Source: Acidocella sp. (GTDB lineage Bacteria; Pseudomonadota; Alphaproteobacteria; Acetobacterales; Acetobacteraceae). Taken from it: a stretch of 64,000 nucleotides of DNA. Shown piece after piece: positions 2,534 to 34,162 of this stretch. Positions within the stretch are counted from its first letter, which is position 1; every line of letters begins with the position of its first letter. The position numbers and the translations under genes are program-made. The notes beneath the pieces are model-generated. The model worked only from the letters and a program-made list of their open reading frames with translations. It was not told where the DNA came from and ran no database searches. The DNA is taken from NCBI GenBank assembly GCA_031291755.1, contig JARLIK010000010.1, positions 1 to 64,000 on the forward strand, in the 5' to 3' direction.

Positions 2534-5284
2534 TTAGCCGCTGTTGCGCAAGGCCGCGGCGATGCTGTTGATGGAAATATGCACGCCGCGCCTCAGCCTT
2601 TCGCTGACCTCACCGGGGCCGTCTGCCGCCTGGTCACGGCAACGCCGCAGCATCGCCACCTGCACATGGTTCAGCGGGTCCAAATACGGAAAGCGGTTCA
2701 TAATCGAGCGGCGCAGTAGCGGATTGCGGTCAAGCAGCGCGCGCTGGCCGGTGATGCTGAGCAGATGCGCACAGGTGCGCTCATACTCGGCCTTGATGCG
2801 CGGAAAAATCCGCTCGCGCAGTTCGTTATCTTCCACTAGCGCCGCATAACGCACCGCAATGCCCATATCAGCCTTCGCCAGCACCATGTCCATGTTCAAC
2901 AGCAACGTGGAAAACACTGGCCAATCCTGAAACATCGACTGCAACAGCCACATACCGCGCTCGCCATGCTTGGCAATCATGGCATCCACAGCGCTGCCAA
3001 ACCCATACCAGCCCGGTAACATCACTCGGCATTGCGCCCATGAAAACACCCAGGGAATCGCTCGCAAATCATCAATTGAACGGCCCTTGGTGCGCGACGC
3101 CGGCCGGCTCCCCAAATTCAGACTTGCAATTTCGGCAATCACCGTCGATTGCCAAAAATAATCCTCAAACCCCGAGGTTTCATAAACCAGATTCCGGTAA
3201 GCTGCATAAGCCGCATCCGAAAGTTCGGTGATGGCATTCACAAAGCTCGGCGAAAGCGGCTCTGCAAGCCCCGGTTCGGCGGTCGCCACCAGGCTGGCTG
3301 CAACCATAACTTCTAGGTTGCGCTTGCCAACTTCGGCATTGCCATATTTGGCAGCGATTACCTCGCCCTGCTCGGTCAGACGTATTTGCCCCTGCACCGC
3401 GCCCTTTGGCTGTGCCAATATCGCCTGATAGCTCGGCCCGCCGCCGCGCCCTACCGAGCCGCCACGGCCATGGAACAGCCGCAGCCGCACGCCGTGTTTG
3501 GCGAACACCGCCACCAACCCGACTTCGGCGCGATATAATTCCCAGCCGGAGGTTAAAAACCCGCCGTCCTTGTTGCTGTCCGAATAGCCCAGCATCACCT
3601 CTTGGGTATCGCCCCGTCTGGCCAGCAGCGCGCGGTACAAAGGCTCGCTGAACAGCGCCTCCATAATCCGCGCCGCCGCCCGCAAATCATCAATGGTCTC
3701 GAACAGCGGCACAATATTGACATCGAGCGCCTGCTCATCAGGCCGTAAAATGCCTGCCTCCTTCAGCAGAATCGCCAACTCCAGCATGTCCGACACATCA
3801 TCGGTTTTGGAGATGATCATGGTGCGGATCGCCCGCAGCCCGTAGCGTTGATGCGCTGCCCGTGCCGCATCGAAAATCGCCAGCTCCTTGGCGGTCTCGG
3901 CGCTATAGGTGATATGGCGCGATACCAAAGGCCGGCTGGTGGCCAGTTCACGCAGCAGAATTTCGCAGCGCCCCGCTTCATTTTTTTCCAGATAGCGGGT
4001 GCCTGGATGAGCCCGCTCCAGCAACTCCGCCACGCTCTGCTCATGCACCGCGGAGTTCTGCCGTAAGTCGAGCGGCGCCAATGTCCAGCCAAATACCCGC
4101 ACGGCCCGCTGCAAATTACCCAACCGCCCCTGTGCCAACAGCCCGGCGCCATGGTTCAGCAGAGAATGCTCGATCACCGCGAGATCATCCATAAAGGCTT
4201 CCGGCGCCGCATACGGCACCGCCGCCGCTTTGACCGGATTTTGCGTCGCTACCAATCGCGCTTCGATGGTTGCCAGCGCCAGCCTGTATGGTTCGTCAGC
4301 CCGATGGTCAGATTTGTCAGGTGAGGCTTGTGCCAGCGCCTTGAGGTCCGGGGTGACATCCGCCAGCAATGCCGCAATCGAAAGCTCACCACGCAGCTTC
4401 GCCACCTGGCCGATATAAAACCCGATGGCCCGCTGCGATTGCCGGGCCAGCGTCTCACTGAGCACGATGGCATCCACGAATGGGTTGCCGTCACGGTCAC
4501 CGCCAATCCAGGTGCCAATCTCCAAAAACGCCGGCAGCTTTTCATCCGTCACGCCGATCGCCCGCTCCACAGCGGCATAAAGCTTGGGCACTTCGGCGAA
4601 AAATGTGGCACTGAAATAGCTCAGCGCGTTCTCCACCTCATCGAGCACGGAGAGCTTGCTGGTTCGCAATGTCCGGGTCTGCCACAATGTGAGGACCAGC
4701 CTGCGCAAGCCTTGGTCCATCTCAGCGCGCTCCTCGGCAGTTTCCTCACCCCGGTCGCGCCGATTCAATAATCGCGTGATTTCATCAAGACTATTAAGAA
4801 TACTCCGGCGCTGCACCTCGGTCGGGTGCGCCGTCAGCACCGGCGCGATATAGGCATTACGGAAAAACGCCTGCAACGCCGCATTATCAAACCCCACTGC
4901 CCTGGCCAGCGCCAATCCCGCCGCCAAACTACCTTCACGCGGCGGCGAACCCGCCACCTGATGCGCCCGCCAGCGCCTGGTATGATGATGATCCTCGGCA
5001 ATGTTCGCCAGAATTGAAAAATACCCAAAAGCGCGCGTGACCTTGTTGATCTCGCCATCCGACAACCCGGCCAGAATCGCCTCCAATTCGGCCTGTGCCG
5101 CTTGGTCCTGATCACGATGAAACCGCACCGCCAACTGCCGGATCGTTTCGATTTGCCGATAAACCGCCTCGCCCTCGATAGCGCGGATGGTCTCGCCCAA
5201 AATTCGGCCCAGCAGGCGAATATCATCACGCAAGGCTTCATCCATCAATTCGGCGCGGTGTTTTGGCGTGTGCACAATGTCCAT
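2534..5284 (-). CDS. ppc: Phosphoenolpyruvate carboxylase
   Basis: PEP carboxylase fixes bicarbonate onto phosphoenolpyruvate to give oxaloacetate, refilling the TCA cycle. The 916-residue protein has the expected length. Visible signatures are the catalytic histidine motif TAHPTEVQRRS near residue 154, the glycine-rich loop GRGGSVGRGGGP near 605, and the lysine motif SDSNKDGG near 568. The C-terminus ends RNSG where most family members end in RNTG, a conservative change at the effector-binding tail. It is a single-gene unit whose 3' end abuts gdhA. The serine cycle also uses this enzyme, but no other serine-cycle gene is evident here, so an anaplerotic role is the plain reading. Confidence 0.97.
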   Translation of the reverse strand: MDIVHTPKHRAELMDEALRDDIRLLGRILGETIRAIEGEAVYRQIETIRQLAVRFHRDQDQAAQAELEAILAGLSDGEINKVTRAFGYFSILANIAEDHHHTRRWRAHQVAGSPPREGSLAAGLALARAVGFDNAALQAFFRNAYIAPVLTAHPTEVQRRSILNSLDEITRLLNRRDRGEETAEERAEMDQGLRRLVLTLWQTRTLRTSKLSVLDEVENALSYFSATFFAEVPKLYAAVERAIGVTDEKLPAFLEIGTWIGGDRDGNPFVDAIVLSETLARQSQRAIGFYIGQVAKLRGELSIAALLADVTPDLKALAQASPDKSDHRADEPYRLALATIEARLVATQNPVKAAAVPYAAPEAFMDDLAVIEHSLLNHGAGLLAQGRLGNLQRAVRVFGWTLAPLDLRQNSAVHEQSVAELLERAHPGTRYLEKNEAGRCEILLRELATSRPLVSRHITYSAETAKELAIFDAARAAHQRYGLRAIRTMIISKTDDVSDMLELAILLKEAGILRPDEQALDVNIVPLFETIDDLRAAARIMEALFSEPLYRALLARRGDTQEVMLGYSDSNKDGGFLTSGWELYRAEVGLVAVFAKHGVRLRLFHGRGGSVGRGGGPSYQAILAQPKGAVQGQIRLTEQGEVIAAKYGNAEVGKRNLEVMVAASLVATAEPGLAEPLSPSFVNAITELSDAAYAAYRNLVYETSGFEDYFWQSTVIAEIASLNLGSRPASRTKGRSIDDLRAIPWVFSWAQCRVMLPGWYGFGSAVDAMIAKHGERGMWLLQSMFQDWPVFSTLLLNMDMVLAKADMGIAVRYAALVEDNELRERIFPRIKAEYERTCAHLLSITGQRALLDRNPLLRRSIMNRFPYLDPLNHVQVAMLRRCRDQAADGPGEVSERLRRGVHISINSIAAALRNSG

Positions 5285-5403: not shown

Positions 5404-6159
5404 TCAGGCCATAAAGCCATCCAATGCCCGCATTCCAGCCAGCACCGCCGCCAACACCAGCAACCCAATGGATATGAACCTGAAATGCCCCTCATGACTG
5501 GACAAATAAAGCTTCGTGCCAGCCACCGACCCCAGCAACACCACCGGCAGGCCAACCACCGAACCCGCCATACTCCACAGGTGAAATTTCCCGAACATCG
5601 CCAACGGAATGAGCGCCAAAATTGAGCTGATCAGGAAAAATATAATCATCGAGGCCCGTGCCACCGCCACACTCAACGGTGCTGCCAAAAAAAACGCCAC
5701 TACCGGCGGGCCGGACATTCCCGCCAAGCCATTCAAAATCCCCGAGGCCACACCAAGCGCCAAAACTTTTCGCCCCGAAGGAATCATTTTCAAGCGATAG
5801 CCGGCTGCTAACGTCACCGCCGTTGCAAGCACGATCACTGCAATACAAAGCCGCAACATATTGGCAGACAAATATATCAACGCCCAGGAGCCCACCGGCG
5901 TCGCAACAATCGACCCAATCGTCAGTCTGTTCACCAATGGCCAATGGCAAAGCCGCACCGAAGTCTGAAAATTCAACAGACTGACATAAACCTGCAACAA
6001 CAACACGATCACCACCGCATCGGTTGGCGGCATCATCAGGCTGAGCAAAGGTATTGCCACAATACCCATACCGAACCCGGTAAAGCCGCGCGCCAACCCC
6101 GCCACAAACAGCATGACAAGACCAACAGCAATATCAATCGGCAACGTGAACATCGGCAT
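5404..6159 (-). CDS. TSUP-family (TauE/SafE-like) membrane exporter, candidate sulfite exporter
   Basis: This 251-residue protein is almost entirely hydrophobic, with about eight predicted membrane segments. It carries the TSUP hallmark GFGMGIVAIPLLSL near the N-terminus and a second half-repeat with GILNGLAGMSGPPVVAFF, where GxxGPP is typical. TSUP proteins export small sulfur-containing anions such as sulfite, or organosulfonates, coupled to ion gradients. It is the last gene of the minus-strand cluster that starts with the biotin carboxylase at 12005. Its nearest functional partner is xsc at 20759-22537, whose reaction releases sulfite in the cytoplasm. A sulfite-export role is inferred from that context, because the family also moves other anions. 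Confidence 0.85.
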   Translation of the reverse strand: MPMFTLPIDIAVGLVMLFVAGLARGFTGFGMGIVAIPLLSLMMPPTDAVVIVLLLQVYVSLLNFQTSVRLCHWPLVNRLTIGSIVATPVGSWALIYLSANMLRLCIAVIVLATAVTLAAGYRLKMIPSGRKVLALGVASGILNGLAGMSGPPVVAFFLAAPLSVAVARASMIIFFLISSILALIPLAMFGKFHLWSMAGSVVGLPVVLLGSVAGTKLYLSSHEGHFRFISIGLLVLAAVLAGMRALDGFMA

Positions 6160-6255
6160 CAGCTATCTAACATCAGCCGATGAAAATCAACGAAGGGCCC
6201 AATGCTGTCTTCTACAAGCCAGCACGAACCCCTCATCGATGCGCGACGGATAATG

Positions 6256-7668
6256 CTACGACTGCGTTTGCAGCTTCGTAATATCAGTCCCGGTTTGTTC
6301 AACACTAAGCCCCGATGTCTGCACACCGAACAGCGCAATCGGCACAATGGCGATCACAGTGAGCACGCCGAGAAAGGCAAACACGGTGCTCGACGAAAAA
6401 TCAGCCTGCAGTGTTGGGAAATAGTAAACCAGAATCACGCCGGTCAAAAACCTGGTGATGCTCTCCCCAATCATCGAGCCCGTAGCCCGCAATCTGGTCG
6501 GGAATTGCTCAGCCATGTAAAGCTTGGCCAGCGGGAACGCCGCATACACCAGACCCCACACCACCATTGCCGCAAATATCGTCCCGATTTGCGACAGCGA
6601 TTGCCCCAGCGCAATGGCCCCCAAACCCGCCAGCGTCATGATTACCGTCAGCCCCGCACGGCGACTGATCTTGTCACCCGCGAGCCCCGCGGCTGCTGTG
6701 GTAATCACTGTGAAGAACAACAATGCCGACGTATAATACAATGCATCCGCCTTGGTCGCTCCCATCCGTGCAATAATCGTCGGTCCATAAATCGTGATCA
6801 CATAAAATACGATGAACGGCGACAACAACGATGCATATGAAATAATGCAGCGGGCCAGATAAGGCGGCTTCAGGAAATCGCCTAACGACACGCGCCGATG
6901 TGCCGTCGCTTCCAGCACCTGCAGCGATGATTTATCAATCAACGAAGTATCATGCGCGAGGCTGCTTACATCTTCCAGCCCCTCAACAAATTTACGTACC
7001 ACATCAATTCGTCCGGCCTTCAACAAAAACCGTGGCGACTCTGGGAGGTATTTAATCAGGATCGGCACAATGAAAATTGTGCAGCCACCTAGGATCAGCA
7101 AAATCCGCCAGGCTTCGGCGTCAGGAACCTTGCCGACAATCAACGCGCCGATCAGCGTATTCAACCCGTAGGAAAAACCCAACATTGCGTTGGATAATCC
7201 CACCGCCGTACCGCGCCATCTTTTGCCAACAAATTCCGATAGCAGCAAATACGGCACCGGAAACACCGCGCCCTGACCCAAGCCTGCCACAAATCGGCAG
7301 ATCACCAGTTGCTCGACGTTCTGCGAAAAGCTAGCCAGAAATGTCACAACACTGAAGATGACAATGCCCGCCAGCAAGGTTGTCTTGCGGCCAAACCGGT
7401 CCGCCAATCGCCCCGCCGGCAACAGGCCAATCACAATCCCCAATGTTCCAGCACTGGCCACCAGCCCCACCTGTTTGGGAGCCAACTGCCAAGTGGATTT
7501 CAGCAGGAACAGAACCGGCGCAATGATGCCGATATCAAACGCCTCCAGTAGCCACACGATGCCGAGCAGGCAGGTTAGAAAAAATATTTTTCGATTAAAC
7601 GGAATCCGGTCAAGACGAGCCAACAGGTTCTCTTGCGCATAGATGGATTGTTCAGCGGTTTCGGACAT
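6256..7668 (-). CDS. MFS transporter (aromatic acid/organic anion:H+ symporter type)
   Basis: The 470-residue protein has twelve predicted membrane segments. It has the MFS signature loop GRLADRFGRKTT after helix 2 and the YLPESPRFL motif before the central loop, typical of the sugar/organic-acid porter branch. It is clearly related to the transporter at 13831-15261 (shared LLPAGR-AD-GRK, LPESPR and LRATG blocks), so the window holds two paralogous importers. It lies between the biotin carrier gene and the TSUP exporter, so it probably brings in the substrate of the carboxylase/BKACE module. The 190-bp gap upstream, with a 16-bp tandem repeat, could hold its own promoter. Confidence 0.87.
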   Translation of the reverse strand: MSETAEQSIYAQENLLARLDRIPFNRKIFFLTCLLGIVWLLEAFDIGIIAPVLFLLKSTWQLAPKQVGLVASAGTLGIVIGLLPAGRLADRFGRKTTLLAGIVIFSVVTFLASFSQNVEQLVICRFVAGLGQGAVFPVPYLLLSEFVGKRWRGTAVGLSNAMLGFSYGLNTLIGALIVGKVPDAEAWRILLILGGCTIFIVPILIKYLPESPRFLLKAGRIDVVRKFVEGLEDVSSLAHDTSLIDKSSLQVLEATAHRRVSLGDFLKPPYLARCIISYASLLSPFIVFYVITIYGPTIIARMGATKADALYYTSALLFFTVITTAAAGLAGDKISRRAGLTVIMTLAGLGAIALGQSLSQIGTIFAAMVVWGLVYAAFPLAKLYMAEQFPTRLRATGSMIGESITRFLTGVILVYYFPTLQADFSSSTVFAFLGVLTVIAIVPIALFGVQTSGLSVEQTGTDITKLQTQS

Positions 7669-7747
7669 ATTGGTTCCCCGATCTTTTGATTTTTAACGCA
7701 GCCAGTTAGTCAGTAACGCTCTACCCGTCATATCTGCGGCGGCGGCC

Positions 7748-7779
7748 TGGCCGTCTCATACACTGGCCGTCTCATACAC
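7748..7779. repeat. Perfect tandem duplication of a 16-bp unit
   Basis: The unit TGGCCGTCTCATACAC occurs twice, back to back, at 7748-7763 and 7764-7779. It sits in the 190-bp non-coding gap between the biotin carrier gene and the MFS gene. It could be a slippage duplication or a doubled protein-binding site. No function can be read directly. Confidence 0.95.
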
Positions 7780-7858
7780 AGGATGAAACCTACTTCAAAA
7801 CGATCTCCCTTGAAAAGAGAAAATTATATCTTTTACATTAATTTAAAAATGCACAACC

Positions 7859-8338
7859 TTAAGTCTGTACTTCGATGGCGAACAGCGGTTGATCAAACTG
7901 CACCAGCACGGCATTATCCGGAAAAATCCGTACCACTTTACCGCTAACTTCGGCGGTAATCGTTGTAAATAGCTTCATCACCTCGATGCTGCACAAAACA
8001 TCACCGGCGTTCACCACGCTGCCCACTTCAACAAACGGCGGGTCCTTCGGCGATGGTGAGCGGTAAAATGTGCCGGTCATCGGCGCACGCACGATCACTC
8101 TGCCATCGCTATCCTGTGCGGATAACGCACTCGGCACGGCCTTCGGCGGTGGTGCTGATGGCACCGGCATTGCCGCTGGCCGCACCGCAGTCACCGGCGC
8201 AGTCACGATCGCTGGCGTACCCCCGCCTCCACGGCGCACCACAATTTTTACATCCGCCAGTTCCACAATCACCTCATCGCAACTACTGGCATCGATAATC
8301 TTGATGATATCCGCAACATCCTTGTAGCTCAACGTCAT
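7859..8338 (-). CDS. Biotin carboxyl carrier protein (second copy, module-specific)
   Basis: The 159-residue protein has AccB architecture: an N-terminal helical segment, a Pro/Ala-rich linker (residues 40-75) and a C-terminal biotinyl domain. The biotin attachment motif is EVMKLF with the acceptor lysine at about residue 122; the common form is EAMKM. In biotin-dependent carboxylases this protein shuttles carboxybiotin between the carboxylase and carboxyltransferase subunits. It is distinct from the housekeeping accB at 43930-44394. It lies 11 nt downstream of the BKACE gene and in one operon with a dedicated biotin carboxylase and a pyruvate-carboxylase-like carboxyltransferase, so a three-subunit enzyme is likely. 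Confidence 0.9.
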   Translation of the reverse strand: MTLSYKDVADIIKIIDASSCDEVIVELADVKIVVRRGGGGTPAIVTAPVTAVRPAAMPVPSAPPPKAVPSALSAQDSDGRVIVRAPMTGTFYRSPSPKDPPFVEVGSVVNAGDVLCSIEVMKLFTTITAEVSGKVVRIFPDNAVLVQFDQPLFAIEVQT

Positions 8339-8349
8339 GTCAGCACTCC

Positions 8350-9174
8350 CTATGCGGCCAGCCCAAGAATTTCGCGCGCTTCCGCCGGGGTGGCGGGCCG
8401 ACGTCCGTACGCAGCCGCATTTTCCACCACCAGCGACACCAACTCCGCATTGCTGCTCGCCAGCCGGTCCTTGCTGATCCGCAGATTATCTTCAAAGCCG
8501 GTGCGCGTATGGCCACCCAATTCAAGGCACCATTTATTCACTTCCAACTGCTGCCGCGCCATACCCAGCGCCGACCATGTGGCGTTTGGTGCAATCACCT
8601 TCAACTCGCTTAATAAAAATTCCAGCAAACTACGCCGCACCGGCATCGCATTCGGGACACCCATCACAAACTGCACATGCAGCGGCTCGGCAATCATGCC
8701 GCGCTTTGCCAAATTTACCGCATTATACATCATAGCCGCATCAAACACCTCAATCTCTGGCTTGATGTGATAGGTCATCATCTCCTTGCAGAGTTCATCA
8801 ATAAAATCCGGCGCGTTCTCATAAATCTGCTGCGGAAAATTAACCGACCCGGTGGTAAGCGATGCCATGTCCGGCTTCAAATACAGGCTGGCTCCGCGCT
8901 TGGCAGCCTCCCGCCCACGCCCCCCGGTTGAGAACTGAATAATCATTCCCGGACAATGTTTGCGTACCCCCTCCTGCACCTGTGCAAACAGCTCCGGTGA
9001 TGAGGACGGATTCTCCTGCTCATCGCGCACATGAATATGCACTAGCGCCGAGCCCGCCTCATAGGCGGCATGTGTTGATTCTATCTGCTCCGAAGGCGTC
9101 ACCGGCAACGCCGGATTATCCTTCTTCCTCGGAATCGCGCCGGTAATGGCGGTGGTGATAATAATCGGTGTCAT
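8350..9174 (-). CDS. Beta-keto acid cleavage enzyme (BKACE, DUF849 family)
   Basis: The 274-residue protein is a TIM-barrel BKACE. It shows the N-terminal strand IIITTAITGA, the metal-binding motif VHIHVRD near residue 46 and the active-site segment RTGFEDNLRIS near 230. Family members transfer the acyl part of a beta-keto acid to the CoA of acetyl-CoA, giving an acyl-CoA and acetoacetate; 3-keto-5-aminohexanoate and dehydrocarnitine are known substrates. I start at ATG 9174, matching the family N-terminus. In-frame starts at 9201 (ATG) and 9216 (GTG) are possible, and the GTG would overlap the upstream gene. Its place inside a carboxylase operon suggests the carboxylase makes its beta-keto acid substrate. 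The specific substrate is not readable. Confidence 0.9.
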   Translation of the reverse strand: MTPIIITTAITGAIPRKKDNPALPVTPSEQIESTHAAYEAGSALVHIHVRDEQENPSSSPELFAQVQEGVRKHCPGMIIQFSTGGRGREAAKRGASLYLKPDMASLTTGSVNFPQQIYENAPDFIDELCKEMMTYHIKPEIEVFDAAMMYNAVNLAKRGMIAEPLHVQFVMGVPNAMPVRRSLLEFLLSELKVIAPNATWSALGMARQQLEVNKWCLELGGHTRTGFEDNLRISKDRLASSNAELVSLVVENAAAYGRRPATPAEAREILGLAA

Positions 9175-9205
9175 CGCAGTCTCTTTCGCTGTGCTGGTCA
9201 TCGCC

Positions 9206-10666
9206 TCATGCGACACCCTGTTTGAAGTGAAAATACTTAATCGCTGGCCGCTGACTGATTTCCTTAATCAAGGTCGCCAGTGGGGTCGCCATAATCGGAT
9301 ATTCAATATTGATCGGCCCGGCATCTTTCAACGCCCGGTAATTGCCGTCATCATAAAACGCCGCCAGCAATAAATCATCATCTGATTTAAAAGGCCCCCG
9401 CTCCGCCCGCAGATTTTGCAAAGCCGGCGGTACCAGCGCCCCCGGACGCTCAGTAATCTGTGGCGCCCCCTTGGTAATTTTGTCGTATAAATTCGGGTCA
9501 ATCGGCCCGGCGATCTCGCCATAGCCACCGCGCACATACAGCCTTATCTCGTCGGGCACAGTATCATAGCGCTCACGCCCCTGCCCGCGCCCTACAACAT
9601 TCAATACTGATTGCGTGACAATATATTGCGCAAAGGGGCTCACGACGATCGGATAGCCTAAATCCTCCCGCACATGCCAGGCTTCTTCGAGGATCTCCTC
9701 CAACCTATCGCGTAACCCCATCGTTTCAAGCTGATACGCCAGGTTCGAGACCATCCCGCCGGGGCACTGATGCAAAAAATGAAAATCATCATATTCGTTG
9801 GGTGTACCGACAGGTTTGTCTTCCTTGGCGGCAATATAAGCTAACAGCTCCGCCACCTCCTCCACCGGCGCCAGATCAACCGGCACCTGATATCCCCGGC
9901 GGCGTAAATTACGCACCACCCGCTCGGTTGGCGAATGCGAAACTCCATTGGCCAAAGTTGAGGTCGCGGTGTGAACAATATCAACCCCATGCTCGACCGC
10001 CTGCAACACCACATAAGGGGCGAGACCCGAATTGCAGTGCGTATGAATCTGTAGTGGCTTGCCGCCCATCACCGCTTTCACCGCCGGTACCAACGTAGCC
10101 ACCCGCTCCGGCGTCAGCAGCCCGCTGGCATCTTTCAAGAATATTGCATCAACCCCCAAAGCCAATAGCTCCTTGGCCTTCTTGGTGTAATACTCATCCG
10201 TATGCACGGGGCTAAAAGTGTAAACCAACCCGCCCACCACATACATGCCATGCCGCTTCGCCGCTTTCACCGGAATTTCCAAGTTGCGCATATCGTTCAA
10301 CGCATCATACGGCGTATGGTAGCGCATCCCATTGGCCGCGAACCGCTCGGCGGCCAGTTCCACCACATCATCGGCAAAAAACTCAAACGTGAACAGACTC
10401 TGCCCGCGCGTATGAATAATCAGGGGCGTCTTGGTCACCCATTGCGACAATATCCGCATCCGCTCCCACGGGTCTTCGCGCAGATACCGCACCGCCACGT
10501 CAAACACCGCGCCGCCCACCAGATCAATCGCCTCAAACCCCGCATTATCCAAACGCGGCGCAATATCGCGCATCATCGCGGTGGTCATCCGCGTCGCCCA
10601 CAGGCATTGGTGCGCATCACGCAGCGTGACATCAACAATCCCAACCTGGCGGTTTTTAAGCGGCAT
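9206..10666 (-). CDS. Pyruvate-carboxylase-like carboxyltransferase subunit with altered substrate pocket
   Basis: The 486-residue protein belongs to the HMGL-like carboxyltransferase family (pyruvate carboxylase, transcarboxylase 5S, oxaloacetate decarboxylase alpha). The catalytic core is there: LRDAHQ at residues 15-20, the lysine of FLKDASG (K178) and the metal-binding HTH at 208-210. Two sites differ. The Arg of the usual FRxFD motif, which holds the pyruvate carboxylate, is replaced (YHTPYD, T118). The conserved Thr after HxHx is Asn (HTHCNSG, N212). There is no biotinyl domain; carrier and carboxylase are separate neighbouring genes. ATG at 10666 overlaps the upstream stop by 11 nt, indicating translational coupling. 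Probably carboxylates a methyl ketone other than pyruvate (inference). Confidence 0.88.
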   Translation of the reverse strand: MPLKNRQVGIVDVTLRDAHQCLWATRMTTAMMRDIAPRLDNAGFEAIDLVGGAVFDVAVRYLREDPWERMRILSQWVTKTPLIIHTRGQSLFTFEFFADDVVELAAERFAANGMRYHTPYDALNDMRNLEIPVKAAKRHGMYVVGGLVYTFSPVHTDEYYTKKAKELLALGVDAIFLKDASGLLTPERVATLVPAVKAVMGGKPLQIHTHCNSGLAPYVVLQAVEHGVDIVHTATSTLANGVSHSPTERVVRNLRRRGYQVPVDLAPVEEVAELLAYIAAKEDKPVGTPNEYDDFHFLHQCPGGMVSNLAYQLETMGLRDRLEEILEEAWHVREDLGYPIVVSPFAQYIVTQSVLNVVGRGQGRERYDTVPDEIRLYVRGGYGEIAGPIDPNLYDKITKGAPQITERPGALVPPALQNLRAERGPFKSDDDLLLAAFYDDGNYRALKDAGPINIEYPIMATPLATLIKEISQRPAIKYFHFKQGVA

Positions 10667-12005
10667 GATTAAATTCCGTTTCAACCCAGCGCGTGTGAAT
10701 GGCCGATCCAATAAAATCCGGCGTCGTCAACAACTTCCGCAAAAACGGAATGGTTGTGGCAACACCTGCAACCTTGAAGCAATCCAGAGCATCCAGCGCG
10801 CGCGCAATGCATTGCACCCGATCCGGTGCATGCACAATCAGCTTACCAAGCAGCGAGTCATAATAGGGCGGCATCTCATAGCCCCGGTAAACATGGCTAT
10901 CAAACCTAACACCCGGCATTTCGGGCACCCGCCACTGCGTAAAAACTCCCGGGCTTGGCATGAATCCACGCGCCGGGTCCTCGGCATTAATCCGCAACTC
11001 AATCGCATGACCATTGGCCTTGAAAGGCGCCTCCGGAAACGACAATTTCTCTCCCGCCGCCACCAGTAATTGCTCAGCCACCAAATCCGTCCCGGTCAAC
11101 ATCTCCGTCACCGGATGCTCCACCTGAATCCGCGTATTCATCTCGATGAAGTAAAAATCCCGGCTCTCCACGTCAAAAATAAATTCAACCGTGCCGGCCC
11201 CCACATAATTGATCGACGACGCCAGCTTCACCGCCGCCGCGCAAATCGCTTGGCGCACGCCCTCATCCAATACTGGCGAAGGCCCTTCCTCCACCAATTT
11301 CTGGTGCCGCCGCTGCACGCTGCAATCGCGCTCCAGCAGATGCACAACCCGCCCAGCATGATCGCCAAACACCTGCACCTCAATATGCCGCACCCGGCCG
11401 ATGAACCGCTCCAGATAAATCCCACCGTCACCAAACGCCGCCTCGGCCTCGCTGGTGGCCTGCACAAAAGCGGCGCGGAACGAAGCCATATCCGGCGCAA
11501 TCCGCATCCCGCGCCCGCCACCTCCCGCCTTGGCCTTCAACAATATCGGAAACCCAATTCCAGGCGCCGCCTTCACCGCCACCTCAGCATCCGAAAAAGC
11601 CTCGTCAGAGCCAGGAACAACCGGCACACCGCATTTCATCGCCGAGCGCCGCGCTTCGGCCTTATCGCCCATCAGCGAAATCGCTTCCGCCGACGGCCCC
11701 ACAAATATGATCCCCTCCGCCGCGCATTCCGCCGCGAACGCCGCTCGTTCCGATAAAAATCCATAGCCCGGATGCAACGCATCACACCCCGTGGCTTTCG
11801 CAACTTCCAGAATAATCCTTGTATCTAAATAACTCTTCGCCGCCGCTGGTGGTCCAATTCGCACCGCCTTATCCGCCGCCCATATATGAGCGGCATTTTC
11901 ATCGGCATCCGAATAAACCGCCACACTCTGCAGCCCAAGCTTCCGGCAGGCGCGAATTATGCGAAGCGCAATTTCCCCTCGATTAGCAACCAGGACACGT
12001 TTCAA
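10656..12005 (-). CDS. Biotin carboxylase subunit (second copy, module-specific)
   Basis: The 449-residue protein is a complete biotin carboxylase: N-terminal KRVLVANRGEIA, the ATP-grasp glycine loop KAGGGGRGMR near residue 160, the ERDCSVQRRHQK segment and the EMNTRIQVEHPVTE metal/bicarbonate motif near 290. It carboxylates biotin on its carrier with ATP and bicarbonate. It starts with TTG at 12005 behind a GAGGAAG ribosome site. It is clearly distinct from housekeeping accC at 42582-43925. As first gene of the cluster carboxylase, carboxyltransferase, BKACE, carrier, MFS and TSUP, it is divergent from an IclR regulator 110 bp away, which probably controls the operon. Confidence 0.93.
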   Translation of the reverse strand: MKRVLVANRGEIALRIIRACRKLGLQSVAVYSDADENAAHIWAADKAVRIGPPAAAKSYLDTRIILEVAKATGCDALHPGYGFLSERAAFAAECAAEGIIFVGPSAEAISLMGDKAEARRSAMKCGVPVVPGSDEAFSDAEVAVKAAPGIGFPILLKAKAGGGGRGMRIAPDMASFRAAFVQATSEAEAAFGDGGIYLERFIGRVRHIEVQVFGDHAGRVVHLLERDCSVQRRHQKLVEEGPSPVLDEGVRQAICAAAVKLASSINYVGAGTVEFIFDVESRDFYFIEMNTRIQVEHPVTEMLTGTDLVAEQLLVAAGEKLSFPEAPFKANGHAIELRINAEDPARGFMPSPGVFTQWRVPEMPGVRFDSHVYRGYEMPPYYDSLLGKLIVHAPDRVQCIARALDALDCFKVAGVATTIPFLRKLLTTPDFIGSAIHTRWVETEFNHAA

Positions 12006-12115
12006 AGACTTCCTCGATTTGTTTTTTGACTTGATCTTTAAAAACTTGCCAAACTAAAATCCGTATTGCAAGTAAATATTATTCATATTCTGATAATTCA
12101 TGCCCAAGGCCGAAA
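12006..12115. promoter_or_regulatory. Divergent promoter region between the carboxylase/BKACE operon and the IclR/SDR pair
   Basis: This 110-bp AT-rich gap separates divergent starts at 12005 and 12116 and must hold promoters for both. It contains the arms ACTTGC (about 12044-12049) and GCAAGT (12068-12073), an imperfectly spaced inverted repeat that could be part of an operator. The placement beside an IclR gene suggests autoregulation and operon control. No clear -10/-35 pair was assigned. Confidence 0.5.
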
Positions 12116-12955
12116 GTGACCCCAAAAATGAAAGAAACCCCCGAAACATCCGCGGAAATCACCTTCGAGACTGAAGGCAAGCCAGCCGCTGCCCCCTCGA
12201 TGAAGGCCTTTGCCTTTCTTGAAGCCGTTGCTAAAGCCCAACGTCCGCTCAGCATTCTCGACCTCAGCGTGCTGCTCGACATCCCGCAACCCACCGCGCA
12301 CCGCATCGTCCACATGCTCGTCGCCGAGGGCCTGCTCATCCGCGAGCCCGGCAGCCGCCGCTACGGCCCCGGCGAGCGTCTTACCAATTTAAGTCTAGGA
12401 CTGCTCTCCGCAGCCGTACGTTCAGCACCCCGCCAAGCAATTTTGCGCGATCTTTCACAAGCTCTGCGCGAAACCTGCAATTTTGGCATTATATCCGGCA
12501 ACGATCTGGTGTATCTCGACCGCGTCGAGGCGGCCTGGCCATTCGGCCTGCGCTTCGAGGCTGGCTCGCGCGTGCCATTACACTGCACCTCCATGGGCAA
12601 ACTTTTCCTCAGCTACATGCCGGCCGAAACCCGGCGGCGGCTCATCAACACCCGCCCATTGCACCCCTACACCGCCACCACCATAACCGATGCCGCCGCC
12701 CTCACGCGCGAGCTTGATAATATTCGTAAAACCGGAATCTCCACTGATAATCAGGAATTTCTGGCAGGCGTGGTGTGTGTCGCCGTCCCAATTCACGCGG
12801 ATAACGGCACAGTCGTCGCGGCCATCGCGGTGTCAGCACCGGTGGCCCGCATGTCACTCCAACAAGGGCTGCAACATGTCCCCCGCCTGCGTGAAGCCGC
12901 CGCCAAAATCCAAGATACCCTCACCACATCAAGGCCCGCCAAGCGCGCCACATAA
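12116..12955 (+). CDS. IclR-family transcriptional regulator
   Basis: The 279-residue protein has a winged helix-turn-helix in the first 90 residues (LSVLLDIPQPTAHRIVHMLV) and an IclR effector domain (ETCNFGIISG, VYLDRVEA, GSRVPLHCTSMGKLFL). IclR proteins bind small organic acids and repress or activate adjacent catabolic operons. GTG at 12116 has AAGG six bases upstream; ATG at 12128 is an alternative. The effector domain closely resembles that of the IclR protein at 19793-20614, so the two are paralogues, probably sensing related compounds. It is divergent from the carboxylase/BKACE operon and 17 bp upstream of an SDR gene. Confidence 0.92.
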   Translation: MTPKMKETPETSAEITFETEGKPAAAPSMKAFAFLEAVAKAQRPLSILDLSVLLDIPQPTAHRIVHMLVAEGLLIREPGSRRYGPGERLTNLSLGLLSAAVRSAPRQAILRDLSQALRETCNFGIISGNDLVYLDRVEAAWPFGLRFEAGSRVPLHCTSMGKLFLSYMPAETRRRLINTRPLHPYTATTITDAAALTRELDNIRKTGISTDNQEFLAGVVCVAVPIHADNGTVVAAIAVSAPVARMSLQQGLQHVPRLREAAAKIQDTLTTSRPAKRAT

Positions 12956-12972
12956 AATTTAAGGAGGCAACC

Positions 12973-13746
12973 ATGTCACTAACGCTCGACCCGCTGTTTT
13001 CCATCGCTGGACAAAACATTTTCGTCGCAGGAGGTGCCGGTGGTCTGGGCTGGCCCATTGCGCAAGAACTCTCAAAACGCGGCGCCAATGTCGCCATCGG
13101 TGATCTTGATTCCACAAAAGCCGCGGCCTGTGCTGAAACTCTATCAAACAACGGCGGCCAGGCGCTGGCCATTGGGCTGAACGTCACGCAACGCGCCTCA
13201 TGCGAAGCCGCCTGCCAGCACGTTGCCAAAAGCTGGGGCCGCCTCGACGGCCTGGTCAATGCCAGCGGTATCTACCGCGTCGGCCCTGCGTTAAACTTTA
13301 ACGACCAGGACTGGCAAAATTCCATCGACATCAACCTCACCGGCAGCTTCCAACTGGCCCGCGCTGCCGGCGCGCTGATGGTGCCGCAAAAATCCGGCAG
13401 CATCATCACCATCACCTCGGTCTCCAGCAGTGTTGCCAACCCCAACTACGCCGCCTACGCCGCCAGCAAAGCGGGGGCAGCCCATGTAACCCGTGTCCTC
13501 GCCCTGGAATGGGCCGCTGCGGGCGTACGGGTCAACGCCATCGGCCCCGCCGTAACACCCACGCCGCTGGCCGCACAAATCATCGACGATCCCGCAACCC
13601 GCAGCAATGCTCTGGCAAAAATCCCCATGCAGCGCTTTGGCACGCCAGATGACCTGCTCGCCGCGGTGGTATTTTTACTCGCTCCCGGCGCCCAATTCCT
13701 GACCGGCCAAATTCTCTATGTTGATGGTGGCCGCACCATCTCATAA
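12973..13746 (+). CDS. Short-chain dehydrogenase/reductase (SDR)
   Basis: The 257-residue protein is a classical SDR: nucleotide-binding glycine motif VAGGAGGLG (residues 18-26), NASG near 96, catalytic serine in TSVSSS near 148, YAASK at 162-166 and a C-terminal LTGQILYVDGG. The usual TGxxxGxG begins with AG here. It uses NAD(P) to interconvert an alcohol and a ketone or aldehyde. It directly follows the IclR gene, with AAGGAGG before its ATG, so the two are probably co-transcribed. Given the neighbours, oxidation of a hydroxyalkyl sulfonate to the keto sulfonate fed to the carboxylase is an attractive guess. SDR sequence alone does not reveal the substrate. Confidence 0.88.
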   Translation: MSLTLDPLFSIAGQNIFVAGGAGGLGWPIAQELSKRGANVAIGDLDSTKAAACAETLSNNGGQALAIGLNVTQRASCEAACQHVAKSWGRLDGLVNASGIYRVGPALNFNDQDWQNSIDINLTGSFQLARAAGALMVPQKSGSIITITSVSSSVANPNYAAYAASKAGAAHVTRVLALEWAAAGVRVNAIGPAVTPTPLAAQIIDDPATRSNALAKIPMQRFGTPDDLLAAVVFLLAPGAQFLTGQILYVDGGRTIS

Positions 13747-13830: not shown

Positions 13831-15261
13831 TCAGGCATCCGAACGTACCGGCTGTCCAAACGGTGCGGCCACCTGTTGAACCTCGCCTTCCAACTCTTCC
13901 AGTGTTTTTCCCTTAGTTTCAACAGTGGCGGTCAACTCCGTTGCCACCCCAATGAACGCCACCACGGCAATGGTCGCAAAACTCACGCCCACACCATAGG
14001 CGTGCAGCAGCACCGGCAGTGAATACGACCCCACCACGCCGCCCAAAAGTCTGGCAACGGATTCAATGGTCGCCGCACCGGTTGCCCGTAATGCCATCGG
14101 ATACTGCTCTGCCATCGACATTTTGAGACTAGGAAACGCCCCCAGCCCAAAAAATGACATGATGCAGGCAAACCCAACCGAGCCAAAAACCGACCCCGCC
14201 ACCGCGAACAGCAAAGCGCCGGCCCCGGCAATACCCATGAACACCACGTAAGCAGCACGCCGGCCAAATTTTTCGCTGAACCAGCCGTTCAACAACTTAC
14301 CTGGAATCGACACCCCGATAATAATCGCCGTAAACAACAGCGATGTCGCAAACTTAAAGCCACCAGCCACAAAAATCGTGGGCATATAGCTCATCACCAC
14401 GTAGAACATGAAAAACACGCCGGTCGCAGAAATGCAGCGTGCTACCGTGCGGCCAATCAAACGCGGCCCGAATATCCCGGCAACCGCCTGCAGCGAAGCC
14501 GTACCGGTTGAAACAACCGGCACCTCGGCCAATGGCGGCAAAGCATGGCCCAGCTTCTTCTCAGCGCCCCGCTCCATCTCCGACAAAATCGCATCCGCTT
14601 CGGCCATCCGGCCATTGCGTTCCAGCCAGCGCGGCGATTCCGGCAGATATTTATAAATGAACCAGATATAGAAAATCGGCGCCGCTGCGATCATGAAAAA
14701 CACGCGCCATGAAACATCGGCGCTGAAATGCGGGAACACCAAAAACCCCAGCAATGGCGCAATGAAATACCCAATCGACAAACAGGCATCCATGAACCCA
14801 TTGAACATGGTCCGATGATTTTTCCGCACAAACTCACAAACGATCGCGTATGGCAGCGGGAATATCGACCCCATACCAATACCCGCAAGAAACCGGATGA
14901 ACAGCAAGCTGTCATAATTTGTTGCAAAAGCACACATAAATGTGAAGAGGCTATAACCAATAATCCCGCCGATCAGCACACGCTTGCGGCCATACTTATC
15001 GGCAAAACGCCCGGCGGGAATCAGCCCAACCACCACGCCCAAAGTTTGCGTCGCCACCAGCAACCCCACATCGCTCGGCGTCAGCCCCATCGTGGCTTTC
15101 AACGCCGGCAATGAAACGCCGAGCGACCCAATGCTGAGCGCTTCGGTAAACCAGGCCAGACCCGCCAGCAGCACAATTCGCCAGGTCAGCCATGTAACAG
15201 GCAGTCGCTCCAACCGCGCCGCGGCTGTTGCAGGAACTCTTTGGTCGTTGGACGTTTGCAT
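13831..15261 (-). CDS. MFS transporter, candidate sulfoacetate importer
   Basis: The 476-residue protein has twelve predicted membrane helices, the MFS loop GRFADKYGRKR and the YLPESPRWL motif before the cytoplasmic loop. An AGGAGG site lies 7 nt upstream of the ATG. It is the last gene of the xsc-pta-SauS-SauCD operon and ends just before the hairpin terminator. In Cupriavidus necator the sulfoacetate cluster also encodes an MFS importer (SauU), so the same role is inferred. It is paralogous to the MFS protein at 6256-7668, which serves the adjacent cluster. The substrate is inferred from position only. Confidence 0.87.
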   Translation of the reverse strand: MQTSNDQRVPATAAARLERLPVTWLTWRIVLLAGLAWFTEALSIGSLGVSLPALKATMGLTPSDVGLLVATQTLGVVVGLIPAGRFADKYGRKRVLIGGIIGYSLFTFMCAFATNYDSLLFIRFLAGIGMGSIFPLPYAIVCEFVRKNHRTMFNGFMDACLSIGYFIAPLLGFLVFPHFSADVSWRVFFMIAAAPIFYIWFIYKYLPESPRWLERNGRMAEADAILSEMERGAEKKLGHALPPLAEVPVVSTGTASLQAVAGIFGPRLIGRTVARCISATGVFFMFYVVMSYMPTIFVAGGFKFATSLLFTAIIIGVSIPGKLLNGWFSEKFGRRAAYVVFMGIAGAGALLFAVAGSVFGSVGFACIMSFFGLGAFPSLKMSMAEQYPMALRATGAATIESVARLLGGVVGSYSLPVLLHAYGVGVSFATIAVVAFIGVATELTATVETKGKTLEELEGEVQQVAAPFGQPVRSDA

Positions 15262-15287: not shown

Positions 15288-16193
15288 TTACGCTGTATTA
15301 TAGGCACTCTTCCTCTTCGTCGCGTGCGCCAAAGCCGTGGCGATATCACGCGGCGTGTCCACAACAATTACGCCGGCATCCTCCAACGCCTTGCGCTTAC
15401 CGGCATAGCTGCCGGCATCTCCTGCGGTAATCGCGCCCGCGTGCCCCATCCGTTTTCCCGGAGGTGCGGCACGCCCCGCGATAAAGGCCACAATCGGCTT
15501 CTTCATGATCGCCGCATAACGCGCCGCCTCTTCCTCCATGCCACCGCCAATTTCACCCACCATCACCACCGCATCAGTATTCTGGTCATGATCCAGCGCC
15601 ACCAGTGCATCCTTGGTGGTGGTCCCAATCATCGGATCACCACCAATGCCGATAAAACTCGACTGTCCAAACCCAGCGCGCGTGAGGTTCAAACAAATCA
15701 AAGTCCCCAAGCTGCCACTGCGCGAAATTACGCCGGTCCGGCCAGGCTTGAAAATATTGCTGTTATGGCCTGGCATAATACCCACAAACCCGGCCCCTGG
15801 CGTGACCAGACCGGCGGTATTTGGCCCTACGATCTTGGTGCCATGCTTGGCCGCTGCCGCAAAAATTTCCAGCACGTCATGCGATGGAATATGCTCGGTC
15901 AAAATCACGATCCCACGCACACCTGAAGTTATCGCATCGAGGGCTGCATCCTTCGCCAGTGTCGGCGGAATGAACATCAATGTGACATCAACCTGCTCGC
16001 TCTTCACAGCCTCTGCTACCGAGCCATAGATCGGCAAGCCAAGATGCGTGGTGCCGGCCCGCTTCGGGTTCACACCACCTATCACCTTGGTACCGCATTC
16101 AATCATCTTCTCTGTCCAGAAGGTCCCCTGGCCGCCGGTCATGCCTTGCACCAGCACCCGGTCGGTACGGCGAATAATCGGAAAATCGTTCAT
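15288..16193 (-). CDS. sauD: ADP-forming acyl-CoA ligase alpha subunit (SucD-like), candidate sulfoacetate-CoA ligase
   Basis: The 301-residue protein matches the succinyl-CoA synthetase alpha subunit: N-terminal CoA-binding fold ([22 protein letters not shown]), [10 protein letters not shown] near residue 182, and the phosphohistidine motif GHAGAI with H251. The acid-binding loop SRSGSLGT differs from the SRSGTLTYE of the TCA enzyme, suggesting a different acid. Its ATG overlaps the beta-subunit stop by 4 nt, as expected for a heteromeric enzyme. Bilophila is reported to use an ADP-forming sulfoacetate-CoA ligase of this type. The assignment here rests on linkage to SauS and xsc. Malate-CoA ligase is the main alternative. 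Confidence 0.85.
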
Positions 16194-17311
16194 TTTGTCA
16201 CCGCAATCGCCGCCTGCACGGCGTCTTCCATAAAATCAAATGGCGTGACGCCAAATTGTTCCTCGATCAAGGCCACAGCCTCATCCTCACCCGTGCCGTG
16301 CACCGAGAAAAACACCGGGACATCGGGTTTCAAAACCTTCCAGGCATCAGCGACGCCCTTCGCCATCACATCAGTTCGGGCAAAGGCACCGCAGAAATTC
16401 ACCACCAGGCTTTTCACGTTCGGATTGGCCAGCACCAGCGCCAGTGCGGCCTCACCCTTGGTGTAGGCATCACCGCCAATTTCCATAAAGTTGGCAGGCG
16501 TACCACCCAGATGCTGCACCACATCCATCGTCGTCATCGTCAAACCGGCCCCATTGGCCAGAATGCCCACATTGCCAGGCAACTCAATAAACTTCAGCCC
16601 CTGAGACGCACCCTTTGCCTCCAGCATCGTCGGCTCCTCTGAAGCCGCCGCCGCCGCCAATTCAGTTTGCCGGTAGGTTGCCGCATCATCGAGGATGAAT
16701 TTGCAATCAAGCGCCACCAGCCTGCCATCTTCCAGCAGCGCCAACGGATTAATTTCCACCAGCTCAGCATCCGTCTGCCGGTAGCGCTGATACAGCTTCA
16801 CCAGTAAATCGCTGATCCCGGCAATATCAACGTCCAATCCGGTCAACATTGACTTCGCATCTTCAATGCTGAAATCATCTGGTGTGCGCACGATAAATCG
16901 CCGGATTGCCTCTGGCTTGGTCGCGGCTAGTTCCTCAATATCCATGCCGCCTTCGGCTGAGAACAAAATCAGCGTGGCCCGCTCCACCGGTGCATGCAAA
17001 ACCGCTGCATAATATTCCTTGGCAATCGCCGCACATTGCTCCACCAGCAGGCCTTGCACGGCATAATCGCCAATCCGCATCGCCAGAATATCCGCCGCGA
17101 CTTTTTCAGCTTCCGCAGCGGTGGCAACCAGCTTGATCCCACCGGCCTTACCGCGCTTGCCAGCCGGCACCTGGGCCTTGATGACGCAGCGCCCTAGCCG
17201 TTGTACCGCCGCCGCGGCCTGGGTGGCTGTTGCGCATATTTCGCCCTGCAGCAGGTTGATGCCAGCCGGAGCCAGCACCAGTTTTTTTGCATCGCCTTCA
17301 TTTAAAATCAT
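16190..17311 (-). CDS. sauC: ADP-forming acyl-CoA ligase beta subunit (SucC-like), candidate sulfoacetate-CoA ligase
   Basis: The 373-residue protein has an ATP-grasp domain (KAQVPAGKRGKAGGIKL, GGMDIEE, LVEINPL) and a C-terminal CoA-ligase flavodoxin-like domain. That domain reads NGAGLTMTTMD and EIGGDAYTK, where TCA-cycle SucC usually has DVGGGA, so the active-site loop is divergent. With SauD it would form sulfoacetyl-CoA from sulfoacetate, CoA and ATP. ATG at 17311 overlaps the upstream SauS stop by 4 nt; an in-frame start at 17329 would overlap more. The three genes are therefore translationally coupled. Family certain, substrate inferred from operon context. Confidence 0.85.
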   Translation of the reverse strand: MILNEGDAKKLVLAPAGINLLQGEICATATQAAAAVQRLGRCVIKAQVPAGKRGKAGGIKLVATAAEAEKVAADILAMRIGDYAVQGLLVEQCAAIAKEYYAAVLHAPVERATLILFSAEGGMDIEELAATKPEAIRRFIVRTPDDFSIEDAKSMLTGLDVDIAGISDLLVKLYQRYRQTDAELVEINPLALLEDGRLVALDCKFILDDAATYRQTELAAAAASEEPTMLEAKGASQGLKFIELPGNVGILANGAGLTMTTMDVVQHLGGTPANFMEIGGDAYTKGEAALALVLANPNVKSLVVNFCGAFARTDVMAKGVADAWKVLKPDVPVFFSVHGTGEDEAVALIEEQFGVTPFDFMEDAVQAAIAVTK

Positions 17312-18774: not shown

Positions 18775-19713
18775 CTAAACCATCTCCGCCGCCGCCAGCC
18801 GCGCCAACGCAATCGAAGCAAGCTTGGCCTCAGCCGGGTCTGCCCGCGAATTCAAAATAATCGGCACGCTGGCGCCCAGCACCACCCCAATCGCCGTCGC
18901 CTGCTTCATATGCACCAGCATTTTAAACAGCCCATTGCCGGTCTCGATATTCGGCACTACCAATATATTCGCCGCACCAGCCACTTTATCATGCTGCAAT
19001 CCTTTTATTTTCGCAGCATGTTTTGAAATCGCCACATCCAGCGCCAACGGCCCAGTAATAGCGCATCCCAGTGCAGCAGCCTCAGCCTGAAACGCATCGG
19101 CAAACGCGCCGGCCGCCATTGATGACGCCATCGCCGGGCTGCGCTCCTCAGTCGCTGAGAGCATCGCAATCCGCGGCGCCGCCATATCCAGCACCTTCGC
19201 CACCATCACCGCATGGCGCACAATATGCAGCATGGTGGCCGGGTTCGGCGCCACATTCAAAGCCGCATCGGTAATCAGCAAATAGTCCGCCGCCCCCGGC
19301 CAGATCATTGCAAACACATGGCTCAAGCGCCGGCCGGTTCGCAAACCACCGGCTGGCTGCAACACCGCCCGCATCAGCACATCCGTATGTATATGGCCTT
19401 TCATCAACAACTGGGCCTCACCGCCATGCACCAGACTCACCGCCAACCGCGCTGCATCTTCCTCGTCAACCGCAGCAACAATCCGCACATCAGCCAACGC
19501 GCGATCATACGCCGCCACGTGCCGCAAAATCCAATCTTTATCACCAACCAAAATCGGCTCGATCAAGCCAAACTCGCGCGCCCAGCTAATGCTTTCCAGC
19601 ACATGCACCGCATTAGCGCCCGCCACCGCCACCGGCACCCGGCCCATCGCCCGCGCTCGCAGCAACAACGCCGGAGGGCATAAATACGCCAAATCTGCTG
19701 GCACATCCGCCAT
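18775..19713 (-). CDS. pta: Phosphate acetyltransferase (short Pta/Ptb type)
   Basis: The protein of about 312 residues belongs to the phosphate acetyl/butyryl transferase family, with GANAVHVLES, LLMKGHIHTDVLMRAVL, TDAALNVAPN and the C-terminal VVPNIETGNGLFKMLVH blocks. It converts acetyl phosphate, the product of Xsc, to acetyl-CoA, completing carbon recovery from sulfoacetaldehyde. ATG at 19713 (preceded by an in-frame TTG at 19716) has a weak ribosome site. A 15-codon leader with a good site (19718-19765) ends 4 nt upstream and may drive its translation. It lies between the IclR gene and sauS. Confidence 0.9.
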   Translation of the reverse strand: MADVPADLAYLCPPALLLRARAMGRVPVAVAGANAVHVLESISWAREFGLIEPILVGDKDWILRHVAAYDRALADVRIVAAVDEEDAARLAVSLVHGGEAQLLMKGHIHTDVLMRAVLQPAGGLRTGRRLSHVFAMIWPGAADYLLITDAALNVAPNPATMLHIVRHAVMVAKVLDMAAPRIAMLSATEERSPAMASSMAAGAFADAFQAEAAALGCAITGPLALDVAISKHAAKIKGLQHDKVAGAANILVVPNIETGNGLFKMLVHMKQATAIGVVLGASVPIILNSRADPAEAKLASIALARLAAAEMV

Positions 19714-19717
19714 CAAA

Positions 19718-31575: not shown

Positions 31576-31583
<8 letters not shown>

Positions 31584-32820: not shown

Positions 32821-32868
32821 CGCAGCTCTCCAACATGCCAGACTCGATTCAAAACTCACCATCCCTCG

Positions 32869-34158: not shown

Positions 34159-34162
34159 CACG

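Follow-up and report, generated by a model that had tools for sequence, protein, structure and literature searches.

Three-subunit biotin-dependent carboxylases acting on hydroxyphenylethanones have been described as HpeCBA in Rhodococcus GD02, AcvCDE in Sphingobium SYK-6 and XccBCA in Aromatoleum EbN1, and in the Hpe-type route the enzyme converts a methyl ketone to a beta-keto acid, which is then broken down (available text of PMC9618137). Another relevant system is the degradation of sulfoacetate in Cupriavidus necator and Bilophila wadsworthia, where SauS, with either SauT or SauCD, leads by way of sulfoacetaldehyde to Xsc (available parts of PMC12625764 and PMC12890257). Genes resembling both systems lie side by side in the stretch analysed here, the first 64,000 nucleotides (the window) of contig JARLIK010000010.1 from an Acidocella metagenome-assembled genome (MAG; 2.59 Mb, estimated completeness 83.7%), where a cluster at 5404-13746 encodes a biotin carboxylase (BC), a carboxyltransferase (CT), a biotin carboxyl carrier protein (BCCP) and a beta-keto acid cleavage enzyme (BKACE) next to an operon that includes Xsc. 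The best-supported reading is that this cluster forms a carboxylation and BKACE branch of a C2-sulfonate island, an explanation that, taken as a whole, we consider slightly better than an even bet. The broader proposition is that a methyl keto-sulfonate, 2-oxopropane-1-sulfonate or something closely analogous, is degraded in two or more bacterial classes through carboxylation by a dedicated biotin carboxylase at the cost of ATP and then BKACE cleavage to sulfoacetyl-CoA; in our view it could fall either way.

In the proposed pathway, a small sulfonated alcohol would be imported, and a short-chain dehydrogenase/reductase (SDR) would then oxidise it to a methyl keto-sulfonate; the simplest pair would be 2-hydroxypropane-1-sulfonate and 2-oxopropane-1-sulfonate. 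BC, BCCP and CT, whose enzyme type is assigned by homology, would carboxylate the methyl group of this presumed substrate with ATP and bicarbonate to give 4-sulfoacetoacetate, which BKACE would cleave with acetyl-CoA to sulfoacetyl-CoA and acetoacetate. From this point the known pathway would take over, with genes again assigned by homology: SauS would convert sulfoacetyl-CoA to sulfoacetaldehyde, Xsc would release sulfite and form acetyl phosphate, Pta would yield acetyl-CoA, and a TauE/SafE permease would export the sulfite. The same island also carries sulfoacetate genes and probably isethionate genes. Its features are listed below, with model scores and cut-offs in brackets.

6159-5404, minus strand, TauE/SafE (TSUP) permease (Pfam TauE PF01925, 91 bits, cut-off 32.6)
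7668-6256, minus strand, MFS importer (best NCBIfam model TIGR00895, under its cut-off)
8338-7859, minus strand, BCCP (TIGR00531, 125 bits, cut-off 115)
9216-8350, minus strand, BKACE (Pfam PF05853, 316 bits, cut-off 24.8)
10711-9206, minus strand, CT of the PYC/OadA type without biotin domain, proposed subunit of a keto-sulfonate carboxylase (best model NF006761)
12005-10656, minus strand, BC subunit (NCBIfam NF006367, 638 bits, cut-off 597)
12044-12073, palindrome ACTTGC-N18-GCAAGT between the divergent IclR and BC genes, candidate IclR operator
12116-12955, plus strand, IclR-family regulator, divergent from BC (profile match)
12973-13746, plus strand, SDR dehydrogenase, proposed to convert a hydroxysulfonate to the ketone (profile match)
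13831-15261, minus strand, second MFS (profile match)
15288-16193, minus strand, SucD-like subunit of an ADP-forming acyl-CoA ligase, SauD-like (under succinate-CoA ligase cut-offs)
16190-17329, minus strand, SucC-like subunit of the same kind of ligase, SauC-like (under cut-offs)
17308-18732, minus strand, SauS, CoA-acylating sulfoacetaldehyde dehydrogenase (NF047625, 772 bits, cut-off 600)
18775-19716, minus strand, Pta-like phosphotransacetylase (best matches under cut-offs)
19793-20614, minus strand, second IclR-family regulator (profile match)
20759-22585, minus strand, Xsc, sulfoacetaldehyde acetyltransferase (TIGR03457, 944 bits, cut-off 676)
22902-25861, plus strand, MFS and GMC oxidoreductase beyond Xsc (profile matches)

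Model matches and coordinates thus recover every gene named in the first-pass annotation of 5404-13746, the flanking IclR and SDR genes, and the neighbouring Xsc operon, which runs from 22585 to 13831 in the order Xsc, IclR, Pta-like, SauS, SucC-like, SucD-like and MFS. The open reading frames of BC and CT overlap, as do those of CT and BKACE, and only 11 nt separate BKACE from BCCP, so that these four genes very probably form a single operon; the BCCP translation carries the biotinyl-lysine region EVMKL. In the Xsc operon, the SucCD-like pair adjoins SauS and owes its SauCD-like label to position and similarity. The second MFS presumably has the SauU role and is probably a sulfoacetate importer, while the MFS and GMC pair beyond Xsc, which we take to correspond to IseU and IseJ, is probably concerned with isethionate import and oxidation.

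The cluster is like the Hpe, Acv and Xcc systems in having separate BC, CT and BCCP subunits, but differs in that Hpe requires a kinase and a phosphatase and acts on aromatic substrates (available text of PMC9618137). The window cluster has no counterpart of the kinase HpeHI or the phosphatase HpeD among its genes; what accompanies the carboxylase here is BKACE, an SDR, a TauE/SafE permease and SauS/Xsc. Its BKACE shares the family match (PF05853, DUF849) and the catalytic positions of that family, yet unlike the known members it is tied to a ketone-carboxylase operon. The Xsc operon itself fits the sulfoacetate pathway with a SauCD-like ADP-forming ligase (as far as the available parts of PMC12625764 and PMC12890257 describe it), and since SauS, Xsc, the SucCD-like pair and the Pta-like gene resemble a complete sulfoacetate route, the BKACE module would be dispensable for sulfoacetate. 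Unlike that route, the carboxylase-BKACE module would give sulfoacetyl-CoA without free sulfoacetate. The proposed pathway is a variant of ketone carboxylation of the HpeCBA type, continued by BKACE and Xsc reactions of known kinds. It had been claimed that no pathway of this form was described; this was too strong, because three-subunit carboxylation of hydroxyphenylethanones is known (PMC9618137, in its available text), whereas a version joining aliphatic sulfonate ketones to BKACE was not found in a literature search. In the same search, judged from titles and the starts of abstracts, the proposed compounds were not found in a catabolic context.

Evidence for the tie to sulfonates comes from the genomes in which related CTs occur. 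A scan of genome contigs gave 41 CT loci at 63-96% identity, mainly from alpha- and gammaproteobacterial MAGs, and including one Rokubacteria MAG plus the isolates Hyphomicrobium sp. CS1BSMeth3 and Brevirhabdus pacifica DSM 27767, in both of which no BKACE of the window type adjoins the CT; the closest relatives are Acidocella MAGs (CT identity 95-96%). The genomes of 40 loci were searched further, with that of L029 outside the search; they are mostly MAGs and related to one another, and clustering at 85% identity reduces 39 full-length CTs to 18 groups. SauS (NF047625) scores above its cut-off in 34 of the 40, with partial matches in five more (G216, G221, G227, G219 and G204), and Xsc (TIGR03457) likewise in 34, with partial matches in four more (G227, G230, G215 and G232), which brings the counts to 39 and 38. 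The partial matches score 1.5-1.8 bits per position, like full ones; Xsc is lacking in G225. Above the same cut-offs, the background in the window's class is 15/289 for SauS and 32/289 for Xsc (window genome counted), and 7/185 for SauS in the class of G238 (G238, itself a CT genome, counted). The enrichment of SauS has a Fisher p of about 4e-32 when the kinship of the genomes is ignored, and the link of the module to C2-sulfonate catabolism is strong.

This association runs in one direction. The CT occurs in none of 43 sampled genomes of the window's class that have SauS or Xsc (E<=1e-100, window genome excluded), although the same query and threshold recover 40 of 40 CT genomes, and it thus appears as a rare accessory to an existing SauS/Xsc metabolism. 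Among 200 sampled genomes of the window's family, only three besides the window's own match the CT at E<=1e-60, with identities of 65% (two genomes) and 37% (one genome).

In two gammaproteobacterial MAGs (loci L018 and L022), BC, CT, BKACE and SauS follow one another in the same orientation, SauS being set off by 43 and 37 nt; the SauS of L018 reaches 730 bits (cut-off 600). This SauS is the only match above cut-off in either genome (the next reaches about 300 bits), and a SauT-like ligase lies on a separate contig, so that SauS appears to be shared by sulfoacetate and the BKACE product; the simplest intermediate common to both feeds would be sulfoacetyl-CoA. An earlier idea that BKACE is the only source for SauS in G213 and G217 was dropped, as SauT-like ligases are present on other contigs. 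In the genome of L035, locus L110 holds within 17 kb CT-BKACE, IclR, BCCP, IseU/IseJ-like genes that include relatives of the window MFS and GMC pair, SauD-SauC-SauS and Xsc, while in Brevirhabdus the CT lies about 10 kb from Xsc and about 13 kb from SauS. Within the window's family, G183 carries BC-CT-BKACE-SDR beside relatives of the window MFS at 7668-6256 and, from the MFS and GMC pair, of the GMC gene alone. The tie to SauS and Xsc that had been suggested finds support in genome co-occurrence, in the shared operon of two MAGs and in short gene distances elsewhere, and a step from BKACE to SauS is likely.

The cluster is also conserved beyond chance. L005, L006 and L041 retain every gene between the SDR and the TSUP permease, both included, among them the MFS (7668-6256), which has further relatives in G183 and G034, and the core genes around CT recur in many of the 41 loci. 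Profiles trained on genes from the CT loci and the window found BC in 31/41 CT loci against 2/40 control stretches (drawn from 11 of the 40 CT genomes), BCCP in 32/41 against 1/40, and IclR in 22/41 against 0/40; related SDRs occur in many CT loci, counted without control stretches. The TauE/SafE profile, trained on 17 sequences (16 from CT loci and one from the window), matched 18/41 CT loci (627 kb), of which only L015 and L030 stand outside the training set, against 0/40 control stretches (800 kb) and 0/17 CT-paralogue and outlier loci. This permease is a probable sulfite exporter. Weak SsuA-family neighbours of CT in 4/41 loci and SsuD-family neighbours in L008 and L021, under cut-off where a representative was scanned, would agree weakly with the TauE/SafE excess.

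The CT of the window keeps the catalytic motifs RDAHQ, KD and HxH, and belongs to the same family as pyruvate carboxylase subunit B, the oxaloacetate decarboxylase alpha subunit and transcarboxylase 5S, but differs from them in pocket and clade. In an alignment with 39 further full-length CTs (L034 and L042 were too short and were dropped), pocket residues common to 2nx9, 5ks8 and 1rqb are changed, in the reference motifs WGGAT, LLRGQN, FR(V/I)FD, KDM and VTP(T/S)SQ; positions changed in at least 93% of the clade include W67, T71, L103, N107, F134, R135 and T360 of the 5S chain. The window CT has DLVGGAV for ECWGGAT, HTRGQS for LLRGQN, HTPYD for FRVFD, KDA for KDM and VSPFAQ for VTP(T/S)SQ, and the methionine of the KDM site is A or P across the alignment rows displayed. 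Two of the changed sites lie at or beside 5S residues that we take to be M186 and A59 and that presumably influence the site. In a tree that also included paralogues and the three PDB references, the window CT and the 39 others form one clade (support 1.0) apart from the references, which also holds the two 65% relatives and a duplicate sequence of L045. That the CT serves an ordinary pyruvate carboxylase or oxaloacetate decarboxylase is hardly credible, even though its top model is the one for pyruvate carboxylase subunit B (NF006761; 441 bits against a cut-off of 402): this model is broad and also takes the CT of L187 described below, pocket and separate clade speak for rejecting the pyruvate carboxylase reading, and a phosphoenolpyruvate carboxylase already lies beside the cluster at 2534-5284.

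An Hpe-like CT from a Rhodococcus pyridinivorans plasmid was compared as well, with HpeB outside the comparison; the likeness of its operon to hpe lies in the set of genes alone (a PPDK-like kinase, a biotin protein, BC, CT and a thiolase). This CT groups with the window CT opposite the three references (support 0.958) and shares with it the pocket features DLVG, M-to-A and PF(S/A)Q, while falling outside the CT clade itself. Two more distant relatives, both outside the tree, lie on plasmids. In Cnuibacter (L187), a CT 45% identical and annotated as pyruvate carboxylase subunit B stands in the order IclR-CT-BCCP-BC-BioY-CoA-transferase (3-oxoacid)-thiolase, which looks like a biotin-dependent route of methyl-ketone degradation; in Pseudomonas putida YC-AE1 (L188), a CT 36% identical accompanies BC, a biotin protein, a HAD hydrolase and an acetoacetate-CoA ligase, perhaps a hydroxyacetophenone carboxylase cluster. 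Judging by sequence, the CT pattern and the operons of these relatives are what a methyl-ketone carboxylase family would look like. The interpretation in the first-pass annotation is upheld to the extent that the CT departs from pyruvate-type CTs and that the module is tied to SauS/Xsc; its substrate, with 2-oxopropanesulfonate as the starting compound, is something we infer.

In 17 of the 41 loci BKACE lies immediately 3' of CT; L020 has a piece of 96 residues. Of the 40 CT genomes, 23 contain a relative at E<=1e-60. An alignment of the window BKACE with 24 from CT genomes (L002 was too short) has H46, H48, S82, E143, R226, E230 and D231 of Kce in all 25 sequences, positions that we take to have catalytic or metal-binding roles. 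R102 (22/25) and R194 (23/25) are absent from 3no5, 3chv and 3fa5, while the GGR arginine of the window BKACE is common to these three structures, and the position of Kce Glu14 holds V, I, L or Q. R102 and R194 would be compatible with an anionic substrate, of which they are no proof; the groups set up in the original BKACE study, as summed up in PMC4922564 (available part), include one for negatively charged substrates. No sulfonated beta-keto acid was found as a substrate in the BKACE literature. A route from oxaloacetate to oxalyl-CoA through BKACE was also considered and has no support, the BKACE substrate in the CORE cycle being malonate semialdehyde (available text of PMC11961710).

In the Arenicellales-type loci L025, L026, L040 and L044, CT with BKACE precedes a GST-like gene and other genes that are conserved. 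Among representatives of these, the top models for L040 are a CoA-transferase, L-carnitine dehydrogenase and an ADP-forming CoA ligase, and that for L026 is crotonobetainyl-CoA hydratase, all under cut-off. Carnitine dehydrogenase yields a beta-keto acid of the form X-CH2-CO-CH2-COO-, where X is trimethylammonium. By analogy, X as sulfonate gives 4-sulfoacetoacetate, and the carnitine-like genes would lend weak support to that intermediate. The same genes could speak for a cationic substrate, with trimethylaminoacetone carboxylated to dehydrocarnitine and cleaved by BKACE to betainyl-CoA, but this is very improbable, because the residues at the Kce Glu14 position and the frequent extra arginines of the cluster BKACEs suit an anion, and SauS and Xsc would be left unexplained. 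They are also in keeping with the same chemistry on another sulfonated ketone, for example 3-hydroxy-2-oxopropanesulfonate from dihydroxypropanesulfonate, or with a carboxylase that serves mainly for re-carboxylation after spontaneous decarboxylation of 4-sulfoacetoacetate derived from a sulfonated carnitine analogue. A HisD-family dehydrogenase close to CT in L024, L037 and L039 points the same way. PYC-type enzymes carboxylate methyl groups, which speaks against this alternative, and we consider it unlikely.

Several observations weigh against the route through 2-oxopropane-1-sulfonate and BKACE. At the looser threshold of E<=1e-120 the SauS background rises to 24/289 and 8/185, and the Rokubacteria genome G239 (locus L045) has the CT with neither SauS nor Xsc. 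SauC-like proteins (>=50% identity) are present in 26 of the 40 CT genomes, and of the remaining 14 genomes 13 have SauT-like ones (>=46% identity, the query being among them), so that SauS alone is no proof of a feed from BKACE. No BKACE of the window type is found at E<=1e-60 in 17 of the 40, and in three of the 23 positive genomes (G206, G219 and G237) it is only 51-58% identical; genomes without it may use a divergent BKACE (L008, L021 and L013) or another route. In a search of the window for the palindrome between BC and IclR, allowing two mismatches, no operator common to the two operons was found.

CT and SauS/Xsc lie within about 20 kb of each other in only six of the 40 genomes besides the window (G200, G201, G213, G217, G229 and G237); with so many short contigs, this count is a minimum. 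This loose linkage would suit a pathway for a plain ketone such as acetone or butanone, found in consumers of C2-sulfonates by ecological association, and the operon of L187, with its CoA-transferase and thiolase, suggests methyl-ketone use by relatives. Such a pathway is nonetheless improbable given SauS within the operon of two MAGs, the TauE/SafE and weak SsuA/SsuD-family neighbours of CT, and a BKACE that for acetone would seem to have no task. A further difficulty for the sulfonate pathway is that the window BKACE, by its match to NF053568 (444 bits, cut-off 350), would be called a 3-oxoadipate:acetyl-CoA acetyltransferase. On this basis CT could convert levulinate to 3-oxoadipate and BKACE could yield succinyl-CoA and acetoacetate, with the sulfonate genes as mere neighbours, and an anionic side chain would suit the GGR arginine in the role presumed for it. 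The model is broad (two less related BKACEs outscore that of the window with 485-492 bits), and levulinate accounts neither for the presence of SauS and Xsc in almost every CT genome, nor for the BC-CT-BKACE-SauS operon, nor for the TauE/SafE excess; we regard it as about as improbable as the plain ketone.

If the carboxylation and BKACE branch for a methyl keto-sulfonate is real, it would add CO2-dependent chemistry and a carboxylation-dependent entry to organosulfonate breakdown. It would also give a function to a subgroup of BKACEs and to a CT clade for which pyruvate carboxylase subunit B is the best named model, and it would predict a methyl keto-sulfonate or its alcohol as a real natural substrate, a keto-sulfonate so far unrecognised.

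The palindrome ACTTGC-N18-GCAAGT is identical in the window, L005 and L006, and in L041 the outermost base of each arm differs, which suggests that the SDR gene and the carboxylase operon may share one regulator. The Xsc operon is not visibly within the reach of that regulator: the two operons have an IclR gene each, and the three further matches that the palindrome search gave in the window are at chance level. The co-regulation proposed for them earlier therefore finds no backing in the sequence.

Further CTs and neighbours were observed in the same genomes. A sister CT family, 46-49% identical, is present in seven CT genomes (L166-L172), mostly in operons with IclR, BCCP and BC, to which L170 and L171 add a divergent BKACE; its members are probably further ketone carboxylases. 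The Rokubacteria genome G239 carries three CT copies (63, 59 and 50% identical) on a single contig (L179). In L008 and L021 the CT adjoins a divergent BKACE, an SsuD-family monooxygenase and a TAXI TRAP transporter, and amidase-family genes are close to the CT cluster in L010, L012, L016, L037 and L039. Elsewhere in the window, a second BC with Pfam BC domains, probably housekeeping, is encoded at 42582-43925, and at 31576-34161 an Aconitase X gene adjoins one for a TRAP DctM permease.

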